From positions 6,039-15,615 of the forward strand of contig NZGQ01000103.1 of assembly GCA_002689565.1 (NCBI GenBank): 9,577 bases of DNA, given 5' to 3'. Below the pieces are notes generated by a model that saw only the letters and a list, made by a program, of their open reading frames with translations, did not search any database and was not told the origin of the DNA. This document shows positions 241 through 8,045 of this stretch, in pieces. The translations under genes and the position numbers were made by a program. Source of the stretch: Methanobacteriota archaeon (lineage in GTDB: Archaea; Thermoplasmatota; Poseidoniia; Poseidoniales; Poseidoniaceae). How positions within the stretch are numbered: the first letter of the stretch is position 1; the number at the start of each line of letters is the position of its first letter.

Positions 241-570
241 CTCTGGTTTCCCCGACCTTCCATCAATATAATAATTATTATCTTTCCCATATCTAGGAGG
301 TGGTGGAAAAGTAATAACAACATTATAATACTTGTCCCAACACTTCTCCTTTCTATTATTGAGAAGGTCATTCTCCAACTGCCTCATATCAGGTTCAGTA
401 CCATATGCGAGAATCCGTCTACTAAATCCTTCTGGTATACTGTCTGCTTTGAACTGCTCCATGACTTTTGATGAATGAGTATAACCATCATCTGGTGTGC
501 CTTTGTGAGAACCGATATAGTACATACTATTCTTGGAATCGTGCCACATATACACGAATGCTTCACTCAT
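1..570 (-). CDS. GIY-YIG family endonuclease with repetitive charged tail (3' end beyond window)
   Basis: The frame is open from an ATG at 570 to the left edge (190 codons, no stop seen). The N-terminus carries the GIY-YIG nuclease signature: FVY at residues 5-7 and YYIGSHKG at 17-24. A conserved Arg follows at 51/52 and a catalytic-type Glu at 66 (QLENDLL). This arrangement is typical of phage free-standing or intron-type homing endonucleases, which cut DNA site-specifically and promote their own spread. From about residue 111 the protein becomes a Lys/Arg/Glu/Tyr-rich series of 15-residue repeats (unit like REYYKENREKEREKR), probably a long charged helix that binds DNA. The start overlaps the stop of the preceding nuclease gene by 8 nt (ATGAGTGA). 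A GAGG lies 10 nt upstream of the ATG, inside an 18-bp repeat shared with the end of pol. Family assignment is firm; a homing role is inferred. Confidence 0.85.
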   Translation of the reverse strand, partial: MSEAFVYMWHDSKNSMYYIGSHKGTPDDGYTHSSKVMEQFKADSIPEGFSRRILAYGTEPDMRQLENDLLNNRKEKCWDKYYNVVITFPPPPRYGKDNNYYIDGRSGKPEYQKEYRKKNLERMRERDREYYKENPEMFREHKKKYREKNREKLREKRREYYKENREKEREKRRKYYKENREKEREKRREY

Positions 571-970
571 CCAAAGAAGTCCTCTTCAAGTATTTTATCG
601 CACTTTTTAAAACTTCAACACTATCTTGTAATTTACTAATCCCAGTGTTACAGTTATCACACAAGTATCCTCTATATTTTCCTGTCTTGTGGTCGTGGTC
701 TAAACACCATTTAATTTTATATCCTCGTGCAAGTAAACCCTCTTCGTCTATTCCACAGATAGCACATTGATAATCACTATTGGGAGTTGGGTGTTGTTCT
801 TTTAGTTTTCTTGTAATCCTACTTTGTTTTCTACAACAGACTCTACACTTCCCACCAAAGTAATTACCACCACTTGCTATAGGAAAGTAATCCTTTGTCT
901 TAGGAAATGTTTCACCACATGATGAACAATTCTTAGTCTCTACATTGTCATAACCAAGTAGGGTGTTCAT
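563..970 (-). CDS. Endonuclease VII-like HNH nuclease, probable mobile endonuclease
   Basis: A 135-aa protein starting at an ATG at 970 that overlaps the pol stop by 4 nt (ATGA). An N-terminal zinc-knuckle-like part has Cys15, Cys18, Cys42 and Cys45. The C-terminal half matches the recombination endonuclease VII / HNH family: Cys69 and Cys72, then [20 protein letters not shown] at about 89-108, which supplies the His/Asp catalytic core and the second zinc Cys pair. T4 gp49 (157 aa) resolves Holliday junctions. Many phage proteins with this domain are instead free-standing homing-type nucleases, and the extra N-terminal knuckle, the site just after pol and the flanking 18-bp direct repeat favour that reading. 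A longer form with a non-ATG start inside pol (up to 1012) is possible but unlikely, because GAGG lies 10 nt before the chosen ATG. Fold is confident; biological role is inferred. Confidence 0.85.
567..584 (-). repeat. 18-bp direct repeat, distal copy
   Basis: The minus-strand sequence GAGGACTTCTTTGGATGA is identical to 967-984, exactly 400 bp away. This copy spans the last codons of the endonuclease VII-like gene and the ATG of the GIY-YIG gene. It supplies a GAGG ribosome-binding site 10 nt before that ATG. Confidence 0.95.
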
Positions 971-984
971 CCAAAGAAGTCCTC
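967..984 (-). repeat. 18-bp direct repeat, pol-terminal copy
   Basis: The minus-strand sequence GAGGACTTCTTTGGATGA encodes the last five pol residues (E-D-F-F-G) and the TGA stop. It also holds the GAGG and ATG that start the endonuclease VII-like gene. The other copy is at 567-584, at the far end of that gene. Confidence 0.95.
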
Positions 985-3429
985 CAATGATGCTTGAGGT
1001 TCGGCAGTCCACCCCACCGCATCCAGTATGGGTTCGAGTGGGTCTACAAATGTCTTGGAGAACATCTTGTCATAGTCGATGTACTTCTCCAGTTGCAACT
1101 CACGAGGTAGGTTCTGTGGATACGAGATCACATTCTCCTTGATAGGATTCGGTGTCTTGAGATAGACAAACTTTATCTTCTCACCATTCTTGATAGTCTC
1201 GTGTCGCATATCCTTGGTGTACTTATTGTACAGCAGTGCACCCCGAACATGAATCGGTGTACCCTTCTTGTATATGGTTTTCTTGTCCGACCACTTGTCA
1301 ACCGCACTCACTCCACGAGGGAATGATACATCTTCGGCAGGTAGACTGGTAAACTCGTTGCGGAAGTTACGAATATAGTTCTGTGTCTCATCCTCGGTGC
1401 CATTGATGATCACACCAAAGACTTCCTTGAATTTGTCACGAACCACTTGAGGTGTGGATGACTTGACTGCTTCGATACCCATCATCTTGAGTTTGGGTTC
1501 TGCGTACTGGACACCCTCGTTGTTATGTACATTGAGGATGTATCGTTTCTTTGCCACCCAGATAGCACGGTCAGCAATAACCTCACGACCCATCTCCATA
1601 CGATTGACATACGCATTGGTATAATCAGCAAGGTCAGCATATGATTTGGTCAGTACAGGTTCAAAGTGTTCGGAACAAATCTTGTCGAGAAACTTGACAG
1701 GGTCTTTGGGATTGAACTTATCAACCAACTTACTCATACGAATGTAGACCGAGTCAGTGTCAATCGCAATCACATAGTCCTCATCTGAGTTGAGAAGTTT
1801 GTTCATCTCTTTGTTGACTGCTCGTTCTGCCCACTTGATAGACAACTGTCCTGCCAGAGTGATAGACTCGGCAACCCTCTGATCAAAGTATCGGAACCAT
1901 CTGTTACCTAGTGCACCATAGAGACTGTTCATCAGAATCTTGATCGACATCTGTTGGTTATCAAGAGTAGCAATCTTGTTGGCAAGACCCTTGCGAGGAT
2001 ACTGCTCATACTCTTGTTGTGCTTCCAACATCTGCTTCTTGATCTCTCTGCGTTCGGCATAGTACTGTCGAATCACACTAGGGATGATGCCCTCTTTATC
2101 CTTACTGAACCGAACACCCGATGGGGCAACCGAATAGTTACCAGTGGTGTTGGTTACTCCTGCAAGCATTCGTTCCACATCGGTATCGATGATACCATCC
2201 ACCACAGTTTCGGGTGACATATTGTATTGTACAATGATCATGGGATACAGTGAGTTCAAGTCAAAAGATGTTACCCAATCATGGGAACCGACTTGGGGTT
2301 CTTTCACATAACCTCCTGCAAAGTCACCCTTGATCTTTTCTTCCTTCGAGGGAACCGCAATGTGCTTGAGGTTCAGAATACGATAGATGATGGAATCCCA
2401 GATAGTGGTTGTACCAAACACATCTTCATAGTTCACACCACCACGGTATGCCATAGTCATTGCCAGAGTGATCAGTCCGAGTTTCTCTTCCAGTAGGTCA
2501 ACCAGTTCAACATCTCGAATGTTGTAGTCAATAAACTTCTGGTGATCTTCCTTATATAAGGTGTGGAGATTACCATGCTCCTCATACGAGAGTTTGCGTT
2601 CACCCAATACGACATGGGCAATGTGATCCAGTCGATAGGACTCCTGTTGACCAAGTGTATTACCAGTGAACTTACGAAACAGATCATAGTAATCCAACTG
2701 AGCAATGCCCATCAGATCATAGGTGTCCACATCCTTCATACCCATCTTACCACGAACAGTACGAGACGAGACGGTGCCCCAAGGTGAGAACCGTTTGACA
2801 GACTCATCACCGATAACCTTCCTTGTTCTATTAACAAGATAGGGAATATCAAACTGCTTGGTGTTCCAACCAGTGACAATGTCGGGTGAACCATGACCCT
2901 GCCAGTAATCTAGAAACTTGTCTAGCAGTTGCAGTTCAGTGTCACACTTCGTGTAGATTGCCTTCTCTGGTGGATCATAATCACCCAGACCCCACACACG
3001 AAAGAACTCTTCCTTACTGGATTTGGTGCATATAGAGATAACTGGATAGTTTGCTTGTTCTGGTTCGGGGAATCCCTCATCCGATGCGACCTCAATATCA
3101 ATAGTGGTGATCACAGGCAGTTCACGATCAAAGTTGATGTCTCTCGGAAACTTCTCTGCAACAAATTGTGAGATGAAATTATTCTGACCATAGACCTTGA
3201 AGGTGTCTATGTGTTGATACCGTTTTGTGAACTCGGTTGCTTCACGCATGGTCTCGAACTGGATTGGTTCGACTGACCTACCATCTAGGGTAGACCACCC
3301 ACTATCACCCTTACCACTGACATACAGGGTAGGTTTGAAAGGGATGCGTTTTTTGACTCGTTGACCGTTGGAATATCCACGATAGAGTAACGCAGACCCA
3401 TATCGGTCAATTGATGTGTAAAAATCCAT
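967..3429 (-). CDS. 43: Family B DNA polymerase with 3'-5' exonuclease (T4 gp43-like)
   Basis: The 820-aa replicative polymerase copies phage DNA and proofreads. Exonuclease motifs: Exo I DIE at 111-113, Exo [10 protein letters not shown] at 187-194, Exo III YNIRD at 302-306. Polymerase motifs: A DLNSLYP at 390-396, B K497xxxNSLYG to 505, C DTDS at 557-560, and a KKRY at 627-630. All key residues are present. It is somewhat shorter than T4 gp43 (898 aa), as in marine relatives. The C-terminus ([10 protein letters not shown]) resembles the sliding-clamp-binding tail of T4/RB69 polymerases. The ATG at 3429 has a strong GGAGAG about 4 nt upstream, and a full-consensus promoter lies just before it. 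The stop overlaps the next gene by 4 nt. In T4, RegA represses several early genes; whether it acts on this messenger cannot be read here. Confidence 0.97.
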
Positions 3430-4896: not shown

Positions 4897-5472
4897 CTAT
4901 ATAAAGTTCTTTGGATCAGTATCGGGATCACTCTCAAAACCAAACGAGAATGTGACTCGTGATACTGATGGTTTCAATTGGTGGTATGTGCCTCTAGGTA
5001 AATAGACACAATCACCTACTTTCAAAATACGAGTCTCGTCTGCGTTGCTTGGTTCCTCGGTATAACCGACTGTAATCTTACAGTCACCGATTGCTTGGAG
5101 CAAGAACACATCCATACTGTCTTTATGTCTAGGGTATGAACCAGAGTCTTGTCCAAATCCAACAAATGCAATGTTTGTAATTTGGGGTGCACCCTTTGTA
5201 TACTTAAACTTCTTGGGTGCAGGGTCAACAAAAAACTCTGTCATCTCTTGATGAATTTCTTTGGCAATCTGAGGTGCAGATGGTCTCCGATGAAACTCAT
5301 TACATCCGAGACGATTCTTCTCACGATTCCAATCGTATAATTTCGATGGATGGGTATCGATCATATACATCATGGTGTTCCAATCGTACCCGACAATATC
5401 CTCTATACGACCCCACCAATGCTTCTTCGCACGAATCTCTTCGATATGATGTTTAAAAAGACCTGTTGTCAT
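4897..5472 (-). CDS. JmjC/cupin-type Fe(II)/2-oxoglutarate-dependent oxygenase-like protein
   Basis: A 191-aa protein whose C-terminal half looks like a double-stranded beta-helix. RHKDSMDVFLLQAIGDCKITV (from 115) gives an H116-x-D118 metal pair, and LKVGDCVYLPRGTYHQL (from 150) gives the distal H164 plus the typical cupin PxGxxH turn. Together these form the HxD...H facial triad of Fe(II)-dependent oxygenases of the JmjC/cupin type, which hydroxylate protein side chains such as ribosomal proteins, or other substrates. The N-terminal 90 residues are helical and Trp-rich. The ATG overlaps the stop of the preceding 63-aa gene by one base (TAATG), so the two are likely translated together. Related oxygenases are frequent in marine T4-like phages, but the substrate is unknown. 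A true 2-oxoglutarate-binding residue is not identifiable by eye. Confidence 0.7.
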   Translation of the reverse strand: MTTGLFKHHIEEIRAKKHWWGRIEDIVGYDWNTMMYMIDTHPSKLYDWNREKNRLGCNEFHRRPSAPQIAKEIHQEMTEFFVDPAPKKFKYTKGAPQITNIAFVGFGQDSGSYPRHKDSMDVFLLQAIGDCKITVGYTEEPSNADETRILKVGDCVYLPRGTYHQLKPSVSRVTFSFGFESDPDTDPKNFI

Positions 5473-5663
5473 TATTCCATTATGCCCAATTTCTTTCCGA
5501 TGGTCTTGTCCAACTTTCTCATTGGAATAGCATCTTGAGACATCTCAAGTGCCTTTTGTTTGGGACTGCGGTTAAATGTGTTGCGAAACCAGATGTCTAC
5601 TCGGTCTGCAATGTTTACTACTTTTCGGAATACCTTACCAAATCCACGATTTACAATTCTCAT
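5472..5663 (-). CDS. 63-aa basic protein of unknown function
   Basis: I do not recognise this family. The protein is strongly basic in its first half (RIVNRGFGKVFRKVVNIADRV) with many Arg/Lys, and probably helical. The second half contains SPKQKALEMSQDAIPMRKLDKT. No membrane segment or zinc motif is seen. It is supported by junctions on both sides: its ATG overlaps the gp4 stop by one base (TAATG) with AAGGAG 8 nt upstream, and its own stop overlaps the oxygenase ATG in the same way. Such precise packing argues for a real gene, possibly nucleic-acid binding or working with gp4. Confidence 0.75.
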   Translation of the reverse strand: MRIVNRGFGKVFRKVVNIADRVDIWFRNTFNRSPKQKALEMSQDAIPMRKLDKTIGKKLGIME

Positions 5664-6040
5664 TAGAACAACTCCTTCTCAGTAAATACTTCAAATGACA
5701 TAAAGTTAATATCGGCAAACTTCCTTGCTTCTGCCCACTTGACCTTGTTGATCTTCCACTTCTTTTGATAATGAGGTTTTATCTCAATGATCTTACTATG
5801 ACGCAGACCTTCGTAGTCGATCATCTCAATCCAGAAGTCGGGGTAGTAGGTGCGGTTCTTGCCCTCAAAGATATAGGGAATCTTGAACTCCTCACTTGAC
5901 CATTGCGTAATGTTCGGACTCTTATCACAGTATACCATAAACAGTCGTTCCCAACTGCTACGGTATATTATCTGATTTACATTACCATGATACTTGTCGG
6001 GATTCTTAGGTGTAAACCTACCCTTAAAGTTATTAAACAT
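5663..6040 (-). CDS. 4: Head-completion protein gp4-like (TnsA-like PD-(D/E)XK nuclease fold)
   Basis: A 125-aa protein matching the T4 gp4 (gp50/4) head-completion family. The N-terminus FKGRFTPKNPDKYHGNVNQI is followed by IYRSSWERLFMVYCD (Glu31) and ITQWSSEEFKIPY. Then comes the nuclease core YYPDFWIEM (Pro67-Asp68) and IIEIKP (Glu86-x-Lys88), the PD...ExK pattern of TnsA-like endonucleases. In T4 this protein acts late, on filled heads before tail attachment. Here it sits among early and accessory genes. The ATG at 6040 has GAGG 7 nt upstream and lies 9 nt after the preceding stop. It is slightly shorter than T4 gp4 (about 150 aa) but retains all core residues. A homing or defence nuclease of the same fold is a less likely alternative. 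Confidence 0.85.
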   Translation of the reverse strand: MFNNFKGRFTPKNPDKYHGNVNQIIYRSSWERLFMVYCDKSPNITQWSSEEFKIPYIFEGKNRTYYPDFWIEMIDYEGLRHSKIIEIKPHYQKKWKINKVKWAEARKFADINFMSFEVFTEKELF

Positions 6041-6049
6041 TCAACCACC

Positions 6050-6664
6050 TCAATAAATAAAATTATCTAATGTAACCTTTTCAAATTTAGACAATCTATC
6101 AGTAATCAGAATTGTCTTTTTATCCTCACCTGTGGGTTTGACATACTTCTCTTTGATTCCTGCACTGTCATCCCATTTCATAGATACAGACTTTCTATCC
6201 TTTGGCAACCCCGCAGTCTCTCCAATCTTCTTCCAGTTGTCTGCAAGATAAACAGCACCCTTCTTACCATCTCCGATTGTAGTGAGTATGGCAACCAAGT
6301 CATCACCATATCTATCATACCAATCTTTCTTTGCACGATTACGAACTGCCTTGAGAATTTGACTTCCCAGATTAGGTATATGTTTAATCATACAGAACCG
6401 TTTGTTATCGGCAACCATGTTAAACATAGGGTCAAACTCTTTTTGAGATTTGTCAAAGTAGTTCAGTATTGCCTTGGGTGTTGGTTTAAACCCACTACCA
6501 ATCCAGAATGTACCTACCAACTCCTTATCATAGTAAACAAGATATTTGATACACCGACCAACAGTTCTCGCACTCGCAACATAACTGTGATATTTGACCA
6601 CAATATTATCTGCGAGTTTCTTTTGACTCGGTGTCTCTGCTATAGTTATGTTTAATCTACTCAA
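6050..6664 (-). CDS. DUF4338/DruA- and Mom-like acyltransferase-fold protein, candidate DNA modifier
   Basis: A 204-aa protein. YLVYYDKELVGTFWIGSG (41-58) resembles the central strands of an N-acyltransferase fold. It is followed by FNMVADNKRFCMIKHIPNLG (81-100), DWYDRYG (114-120) and GAVYLADNWKKIGETAG (136-152). These recall the DUF4338 family (which includes Druantia DruA) and, more distantly, the Mom-type GNAT enzymes that add a carbamoylmethyl-type group to adenine; compare the usual V-NN-RF, PNLAS, DW--RYGY and Y-AANW--GET-GRG blocks. The C-terminal 50 residues are Lys-rich and unassigned. It starts at TTG (6664) in a TTGA overlap with the HNH nuclease stop, with GGAGG 4 nt before it; no ATG is available until residue 83. 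Coupling to a restriction-like nuclease suggests a linked role on DNA. The fold is a motif-level judgement; the activity is inference. Confidence 0.6.
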   Translation of the reverse strand: MSRLNITIAETPSQKKLADNIVVKYHSYVASARTVGRCIKYLVYYDKELVGTFWIGSGFKPTPKAILNYFDKSQKEFDPMFNMVADNKRFCMIKHIPNLGSQILKAVRNRAKKDWYDRYGDDLVAILTTIGDGKKGAVYLADNWKKIGETAGLPKDRKSVSMKWDDSAGIKEKYVKPTGEDKKTILITDRLSKFEKVTLDNFIY

Positions 6665-7200
6665 AGTGCCTCCACGACACGACCCATCCTATCAAATACG
6701 AATTTGTCACCATAAAATTTATTACAATATTGGCACTGCGGAATGATATTATCAGGTGACATATCCAACCGAGGATCGCAGTGCCCCTTCTCTAAAATTA
6801 CCTTACCATGTTCAAAACGATGTTTTGTCCCTTCTTTCTCTCCACAAGTAGCACACCTATTATCATAGGCACTCTTCATCTCAGTGAAGTCAGAAGTATT
6901 TAGTTCGTTCAATCTTTTCTTGGCATGGAATGATGGGTGAGGTTCCTTCGTAGTTACCAGTCGGTAGTTGCCCTTTCCATCCTGCTCGACATACCAACCA
7001 GATTGTTTACCAAGGTGTCTGGCATCCTGTAGATCAGACCCTTGATAGTTAATTAGTTTGGCAATCTCTCCCTTGGTCAACCAAGTCCCTTCGTACTCGT
7101 GTAAGACCATCAGAGTCTTGTACTTGTTGCTCCCCTCTCGGAAATTGAACTTGACCCCATGTGGTTTCAGATAGGTTTCCCAATCAGATCGTAAACTCAT
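6661..7200 (-). CDS. HNH endonuclease resembling type II restriction enzymes
   Basis: A 179-aa protein. Residues 27-75 look like a winged-helix DNA-binding domain (YKTLMVLHEYEGTWLTKGEI, then a turn and GWYVEQDGKGNYRLV). Residues 113-170 form a zinc-stabilised HNH (beta-beta-alpha-metal) core: Cys116 and Cys119, LEKGHCDPR with His140 and Asp142, NIIPQCQYCN with Asn151, Cys156, Cys159 and Asn160. LEKGH..DPR...DNIIPQCQYCN is the style seen in HNH type II restriction enzymes rather than in intron-type HNH proteins. The ATG at 7200 is chosen (GAGGA 8 nt upstream); the frame extends further up but across the promoter. Its own full-consensus promoter precedes it, and its stop overlaps the next gene by TTGA. 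Possible roles are host-DNA attack, exclusion of competing phages, or homing; the target site is unknown. Confidence 0.75.
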   Translation of the reverse strand: MSLRSDWETYLKPHGVKFNFREGSNKYKTLMVLHEYEGTWLTKGEIAKLINYQGSDLQDARHLGKQSGWYVEQDGKGNYRLVTTKEPHPSFHAKKRLNELNTSDFTEMKSAYDNRCATCGEKEGTKHRFEHGKVILEKGHCDPRLDMSPDNIIPQCQYCNKFYGDKFVFDRMGRVVEAL

Positions 7201-7228: not shown

Positions 7229-7258
7229 ATTATACCACACCAGATCAAGAGTTGTCAA
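7229..7258 (-). promoter_or_regulatory. Full-consensus extended -10 sigma70 promoter for the HNH/DUF4338 operon
   Basis: The minus strand has TTGACA (7258-7253), an 18-nt spacer and TATAAT (7234-7229). The spacer ends in TGG, giving an extended -10 (TGnTATAAT). Transcription would start near 7222, about 22 nt before the ATG at 7200. The -35 box begins 9 nt after the regA stop, so this gap of about 67 nt is used almost entirely as a promoter and leader. Confidence 0.85.
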
Positions 7259-7267
7259 GGGATTATA

Positions 7268-7639
7268 TCACTTATTGCCAATATTATATTTGGGGCACAA
7301 CTCCCACTGGTCTTTGTCTTTAAAACCAATGATCTTGATTTGTCTTAGAGGTGCACAATCTACTGCTACTTCCTTGTTCTGTATCTCTACAAGACCCCAA
7401 TCCGATAGCAATGTCGCAATAGTGTTTCGTCTCTCGACATCTGATTTCTCTAAGTTTGCTTTCTTACCATCCAAGATAAACAGTTCTTTGAAGTGTACGA
7501 TATAGTACCTTCCCTGTTTATGGAGGATATGGCAGGACTGAAACAGTTTGTTTTCTTTGCGTGATGCAACTCCAATACGAGTCAGAGTTTCACGCACTTT
7601 GAGGAAATCATCGGGTTCTGCCAGAGTGATCTCTAGCAT
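7268..7639 (-). CDS. regA: RegA translational repressor of early mRNAs
   Basis: A 123-aa protein, against 122 aa in T4. It matches the T4 RegA pattern end to end: MLEITLAEPDDFLKVRETLT at the start, SCHILHKQGRYYIVHFKELF at 35-54, RRNTIATLLSDWGLVEI in the middle and WELCPKYNIGNK at the end. RegA binds AU-rich sites around the start codons of early phage messengers and blocks initiation; in T4 it represses itself, gp44, gp45 and others. The ATG at 7639 is chosen because it aligns with the T4 N-terminus and has AAAGAG just upstream. A GTG at 7678 in the same frame, overlapping gp62, would add 13 residues without family support. It follows gp62 by 25 nt, the order found in T4, but is followed here by a new promoter and accessory genes instead of pol. 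Confidence 0.95.
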   Translation of the reverse strand: MLEITLAEPDDFLKVRETLTRIGVASRKENKLFQSCHILHKQGRYYIVHFKELFILDGKKANLEKSDVERRNTIATLLSDWGLVEIQNKEVAVDCAPLRQIKIIGFKDKDQWELCPKYNIGNK

Positions 7640-7664
7640 ACTCTTTGGTGCCCATGATACTAAA

Positions 7665-8045
7665 TTATTTTCTTCCACCTTTATTCACCTTATCTTTTAT
7701 TTGTTTAATTTGAGAAGGTGAGAGAAGAGATAGGATTTGCCGTGCTTTTTCATTGCTATATCCATAATATCTTTTTACCGACCCAAGGTCATTTTCCAAT
7801 TCAGGTTTTACCCATTTAGAGAAACGCTTCCGTTTCCTAATTATATTTATAAGAAACGAGAATTGTAGACGAGAGTCTAGGTGGTGGTATTTGTTCATCT
7901 CATTCGCAATCACGACAGTATCAGAGAAGTAAGATAACGAACGGTTTACCATGAAAGGTACATATACTTTCTCGTCATCCGAGGATTGCATAATATCTTT
8001 CTTGGAGTAGTTAATCGCATTCACATAATCAAAAGGTTTTATCAA
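7665..8045 (-). CDS. 62: Sliding-clamp loader small subunit (T4 gp62-like)
   Basis: A 126-aa protein. Together with gp44 it loads the gp45 clamp on primed DNA. The family blocks are FDYVNAINYSKKDIM (5-19), EKVYVPFMVNRSLSYFSDTV (25-44), RKRKRFSKWVKPE (70-82) and KRYYGYSNEKARQIL (91-105). It is shorter than T4 gp62 (187 aa), as in marine T4-like phages. I choose a TTG at 8045 that overlaps the dCMP deaminase stop (TTGA) with GGAG 9 nt upstream. A second TTG at 8066 would add seven residues and lacks a ribosome-binding site; no ATG is available near the conserved start. The following gene is regA, as in T4. The partner gp44 and the clamp gp45 are not in this window. Confidence 0.9.
   Translation of the reverse strand: MIKPFDYVNAINYSKKDIMQSSDDEKVYVPFMVNRSLSYFSDTVVIANEMNKYHHLDSRLQFSFLINIIRKRKRFSKWVKPELENDLGSVKRYYGYSNEKARQILSLLSPSQIKQIKDKVNKGGRK

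Follow-up and report, generated by a model that had tools for sequence, protein, structure and literature searches.

We analysed a 9,577-nt stretch of DNA (hereafter the window; positions 6,039 to 15,615 of contig NZGQ01000103.1 in assembly GCA_002689565.1, catalogued as a Poseidoniaceae archaeon), which belongs to a T4-like virus that infects bacteria. On its minus strand, a gene for an endonuclease combining a winged helix (wH) with an HNH domain is followed by a gene for a Mom-like protein, and the TTG start of the second gene lies in a 4-nt overlap with the stop of the first. A promoter-like site upstream of both is the sole perfect sigma-70 match between positions 5500 and 7800 (Table 1). 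By eye, its hexamers are identical in loci L001 and L005, and in L002 the -35 hexamer carries one mismatch. A preliminary description of the window had noted both the overlap and a full-consensus extended -10 promoter, and each was confirmed. Purifying selection is apparent on both genes from a simple Nei-Gojobori count, expressed as pN/pS and not dN/dS because synonymous sites were saturated in many pairs.

Table 1. Features of the HNH-Mom locus, in window coordinates (aa, amino acids)
Feature	Position	Strand	Evidence or remark
Promoter-like site TTGACA-N18-TATAAT, sigma-70 consensus, extended -10	7229..7258	-	12/12 matches; TG before second hexamer; ~30 nt 5' of HNH start codon
Endonuclease (179 aa), winged helix + HNH, restriction-enzyme family	6661..7200	-	Sequence; genome relatives adjoining DNA methyltransferases
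Mom-like GNAT-fold protein (204 aa), probable DNA (adenine) acyl-modification enzyme	6050..6664	-	TTG start
RegA translational repressor, upstream flank of the pair	7268..7678	-	PF01818, E=3.6e-44
Cupin/JmjC-like protein (191 aa), downstream flank	4897..5472	-	PF08007, E=1.1e-9
TnsA-like / PHROG 'head closure' protein, between Mom and downstream flank	5663..6040	-	Pfam/PHROG

Gene context marks the HNH proteins as a family of restriction enzymes, in line with the restriction-type nuclease proposed earlier, and the HNH/zinc (catalytic) residues of the window protein are intact. A scan of GTDB genomes gave 153 HNH relatives, the best 80 of which were fetched for context counts; methyltransferase neighbours were detected with seven seed methyltransferases. 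A DNA methyltransferase lay within 1.5 kb of the HNH gene in 79 of the 80 loci and within 300 nt in 74, the sole miss (L088) having one 2.7 kb away. Altogether these loci held 92 methyltransferase open reading frames (ORFs), 84 of them within 1.5 kb. The methyltransferase was of N6/N4 type in 58 of the 79 loci and of C5 type in 21, both types being confirmed on representatives by Pfam. On a Thermus plasmid, an HNH relative is likewise followed by an annotated site-specific DNA-methyltransferase. The DPPY motif was present in 60 of 63 N6/N4 partners (from 58 genome loci, four viral loci and one plasmid locus), the other three having no such motif. Some phages keep the methylase version, with an N6/N4 enzyme in L149, L150, L154 and L259 and a C5 enzyme in L153. 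The window thus shares its wH-HNH family and a DNA-modification partner with the type II-like loci of bacteria and archaea (for example those of Helicobacter, Campylobacter, Brachyspira and the Thermus plasmid), but its partner is Mom-like instead of a methyltransferase and its nuclease is shorter (179 aa against ~240).

Direct searches said less about the nuclease. Foldseek with the HNH model returned weak matches throughout, the best being Cap5 (E 0.035), with McrA and PacI lower. The PADLOC candidate PDC-M01B and Septu PtuB matched the HNH stretch (E 6.8e-5 and 0.0088, respectively), but the match was weak and confined to residues ~91-171. PDB sequence searches with each window protein and both profiles gave nothing useful, neither protein matched NCBIfam, and at E 1e-3 neither had a relative among the 50,697 named phage records.

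This context also bears on whether the HNH protein is instead a modification-dependent (type IV-like) enzyme that cuts methylated host DNA, with Mom blocking the adenines it reads. Enzymes of wH-HNH type with the same domain order and size class (224-283 aa) and Dam-dependent toxicity are described in PMC11037411, and a viral SRA-wH-HNH protein cuts Gm6ATC DNA (PMC10101028). The former also lists 47 PUA-wH-HNH or wH-HNH cases with Eco57I-like methyltransferases within a 10-kb interval; this class can therefore not be dismissed on methylase neighbours alone. The same paper nevertheless expects such enzymes to stand alone, under a section headed 'rare occurrence of methyltransferase genes'. The genome relatives of the window protein do not stand alone: nearly all adjoin an N6/N4 methyltransferase, mostly with DPPY, or a C5 methyltransferase. 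Several viral relatives do stand alone in the stretch seen. The contrast with the published enzymes is one of description, not of sequence. Because wH fusion nucleases of this kind rarely have methyltransferase neighbours according to that text, we give a modification-dependent nuclease only a small probability.

The preliminary description had called the second protein DruA/Mom-like, within an acyltransferase fold. The Mom half of this held. The protein has a GNAT (acyltransferase) fold in which phage Mu Mom is the top PDB Foldseek match; it matches PHROG 1384, the Mom family, at E=4.8e-6, and its family profile aligns with 13 Mom proteins in hhalign at E=1.8e-7. Against Mu Mom alone the window protein gave a weak result (E 0.011, probability 3.9), the likeness being seen by profile. 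Besides the fold, it shares with Mu Mom the motifs Y-x3-N and G-x-x-Y and an aligned serine, S101, at the position of Mu S124 in 8bv8; this position is Ser in 15 and Thr in 31 of 46 sequences. What is said here of the active site of Mu Mom derives from the title of 8bv8 and the alignment. From sequence and model, the 204-aa protein is a Mom-superfamily GNAT. The setting differs from that in Mu, where com precedes mom and no nuclease is annotated (Mu stretch 34500-36717). The DruA half was dropped. The weak, partial-profile match to Druantia DruA (PF14236; profile positions 68-178 of 297) scored 24.1 bits, below the Pfam cut-off of 27, and PADLOC gave no match for the protein; Druantia was rejected on these two grounds. 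Membership of that system would presumably need DruA plus other Druantia genes.

Next, the distribution of the pair in other viruses was studied. An HNH gene adjoins a Mom gene on five virus contigs (3300017779_003101, 3300017746_001222, 3300021425_000029, 3300021368_000800 and 3300034073_003944). On the last of these (L155) the HNH protein is strongly diverged, at 35% identity, and Mom has its best ATG start within the terminal part of the HNH gene. In a tree of 112 HNH rows (the window's own protein was left out; L141 equals it throughout the matched part), the five Mom-paired rows cannot be explained with fewer than two changes, as starred branches force both, and holding these rows together costs 78.7 log-likelihood units (approximately unbiased test, p ~1e-16). 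Pairing is thus placed at two separate points of the HNH tree, one of the five being an independent pairing. The Mom tree (83 rows, built by a quick method) requires three changes for its six HNH-linked rows, two of them forced. Relatives carrying both genes together, as looked for in the preliminary description, therefore exist and include one independent pairing. More pairs are indirectly indicated by cluster sizes: the longest contig of five of the ten closest HNH clusters equals in size that of a Mom cluster (5511, 1543, 1984, 20238 and 5220), the Mom side covering 120 of 969 proteins among the matches listed.

Searches with the diverged L155 proteins added little. Among named phage records its HNH protein matched only Bacillus phages Goe12 and Goe13, and these in part, with no Mom or methylase product annotated around the match in Goe13. 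A scan for more relatives of this HNH protein recovered L155 alone, and its Mom-like protein had no relative in named phage records at E 0.01. Genes for tRNA-Ile and tRNA-Leu lie directly upstream of this divergent pair (L155:4630-4813), with tRNA-Met further up.

The pair looks like an inserted unit beside regA, since L005 has the order regA-HNH-Mom-cupin where Phage C48C1 passes directly from regA to a cupin-like gene. The neighbours of the pair in L003 are different. A free-standing homing-type HNH endonuclease that spread itself and took Mom along would also account for variable insertion sites, separate promoter-like sites and patchy presence. The comparison of L005 with C48C1 speaks against this, as the whole pair and not HNH alone lies at the regA site of L005, and so does the restriction-modification context of the family in genomes; we regard such an origin as very improbable. 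The TnsA-like/head-closure gene and a 63-aa ORF (window 5472-6040) are absent at this place from both L005 and C48C1.

Methylases were also sought around the pair itself. Pfam or PHROGs scans of 15 ORFs of the window found none, and PF01555, PF00145, PF02086 and PF05869 had no match on the contigs of L155 (173 kb), L005 (67 kb) and L003 (28 kb), although control genomes gave matches for all four models. A classical methyl type II restriction-modification system at the window locus was rejected, no cognate DNA methyltransferase adjoining the nuclease.

The families and their pairing are solid, and a joint function of HNH and Mom, though predicted, is likely. The best-supported reading of the locus is the one first proposed for it, a phage-borne restriction/protection cassette; the methyltransferase's place in a type II system would be taken by a Mom-type enzyme. 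We put the probability of this at roughly 0.55. The fuller claim, that this is a self-contained, unfused system in which the Mom acyl mark on adenine stands in for methylation as the cognate protection of the HNH nuclease, and that phages assembled it at least twice independently from a restriction-enzyme family whose bacterial partners are methylases, falls slightly short of an even chance.

Several observations weigh against these proposals. Whole-contig searches found no Mom on 22 of 27 HNH virus contigs, many of them fragments (in two sets, with Mom on 5/21 and 0/6). Close HNH relatives (79-80% identical) on contigs of 4.2-7.8 kb lack Mom in L144, L145, L248 and L249, so that among eight contigs with a full-length close relative Mom is adjacent in four and absent in four, a ninth (L159) being a fragment. 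The fetched stretches of L146-L148, L151, L152, L156-L158, L250, L256 and L258 held neither Mom nor a seed-like methylase, and the whole contigs of L146, L147, L151, L156, L157, L250 and L256 gave no PF01555 or PF00145. Conversely, HNH was absent from 77 of the 83 Mom rows in the fetched stretch, and from 36 of 39 Mom-bearing contigs searched whole (present in three), these 39 having been picked mainly on length from 137 Mom-bearing loci that include repeats of one contig. The second, independent pairing is a single contig, L155, on a long branch flagged by the program. Mu Asp139 (AF083977 numbering) has no sure counterpart in the window Mom-like protein, and its chemistry may differ from that of Mu Mom. 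The coupling suggested earlier thus holds on the five virus contigs but is not universal: from the contig counts, Mom is also found without HNH, mostly so, and HNH may exist without Mom.

The main alternative is accordingly that the two are neighbours without a joint function in an accessory slot, Mom shielding the phage from host restriction as in Mu and HNH being a separate nuclease that degrades host DNA or cuts that of competitors. Many Mom-like genes do stand alone or by replication genes: in one large T4-like group (many loci among L015-L056) Mom lies between the late-transcription coactivator gp33 and the helicase loader gp59 (Pfam, L015 only), and RusA-like, terminase-like and ThyX-like neighbours were seen elsewhere by eye. 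HNH without Mom has, in L144 and L145, its own TTGACA/TATAAT-like promoter (by eye). In L144, L145, L248 and L249 it lies between a cytidylyltransferase-like gene and a small gene (a membrane protein by eye), with one extra gene after the cytidylyltransferase-like gene in L249, and ~1.3-1.9 kb upstream of gp33-gp59-like genes (Pfam, L144 only). The 195-kb contig L250, with a diverged HNH, lacks Mom and both methylase families (PF01555 and PF00145) throughout; HNH may therefore work without either partner in some phages. We nevertheless consider separate functions unlikely. Two rare genes adjoin in two separate instances with overlapping reading frames, the pair is present as a unit at two sites, and in the fetched genomes the HNH family is near-constantly paired with modification enzymes.

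Other nuclease or methylase neighbours of Mom were also seen. In L227 (3330-3998) and L228 a Mom-like gene is preceded, with no gap, by one for a 222-aa protein of PHROG 25220, whose function is unknown in PHROG. By eye this could be a PD-(D/E)XK nuclease, which would make a second type of nuclease-Mom pair; neither it (L227) nor the 219-aa candidate nuclease beside Mom in L014 had a Pfam nuclease match. A Mom-like gene directly follows a DNA methyltransferase in L202 (Pfam-confirmed), L053 (weak matches) and L203 (which clusters with L202). In Vibrio phage F98 (L278) and phage DillTech15 (L272), a named Mom homologue is followed a few genes later by one annotated as an HNH endonuclease or endonuclease; these may be further loose nuclease-Mom associations.

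In minus-strand order, genes for a MazG/PRA-PH-like protein, dCMP deaminase, the clamp-loader small subunit and RegA precede the HNH and Mom-like genes, which are followed by those for the TnsA-like/head-closure, cupin/JmjC-like and Hsp20 proteins, a 258-aa ORF without Pfam match, DNA polymerase and an endonuclease VII-like protein. The DNA polymerase shares 65% identity with its counterpart in Phage C48C1 (Kyanoviridae) and 48-49% with those of Synechococcus phages. The phage is probably marine, given its phage relatives and the Tara source of HNH cluster P0126. No Rfam family and no tRNA was found in the window. The endonuclease VII-like gene (window 563-1012) lies right after the DNA polymerase, where C48C1 has an annotated DNA methyltransferase. 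This may be another spot where genes for modifying and for cutting DNA replace one another.

The preliminary description had known of no described system with this exact pair. A literature search recognised no report of an unfused HNH-Mom pair, although such a search does not prove absence from print. The idea itself is not wholly unreported. According to PMC7824862, Mom domains are fused to REase-fold nucleases in jumbo phages; the Mom part is predicted to shield the phage's own DNA and the nuclease to attack that of the host or of rivals. Both cases join Mom-type modification to a nuclease under the same proposed logic, but the window has two overlapping ORFs, a wH-HNH nuclease from a methylase-paired family and a T4-like phage, and its Mom branch is far from Mu Mom.

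As a restriction/protection cassette, the locus would work as follows. HNH and Mom would be made together from one promoter via their overlapping genes, and co-translation would keep protection in step with the nuclease. Mom would mark phage DNA with an acyl-derived group (on adenine N6, as Mu Mom does) at the HNH target or close to it. The nuclease would then spare the marked phage DNA and cut unmodified host or rival phage DNA at adenine-containing sites. That the bacterial partners carry DPPY suggests that adenine modification is what usually blocks this nuclease family, so a swap to an adenine-acylating enzyme would be simple.

Methylation is what normally restrains type II restriction enzymes. 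If the proposal is true, the swap of methylase for Mom would show that a non-methyl base mark can act as cognate protection, and Mom proteins would gain a role beyond shielding phages from their hosts. The pair would also provide a small two-gene setting for reading Mom's specificity and chemistry by cleavage. For these uncultivated phages, it predicts modified adenine in their DNA.
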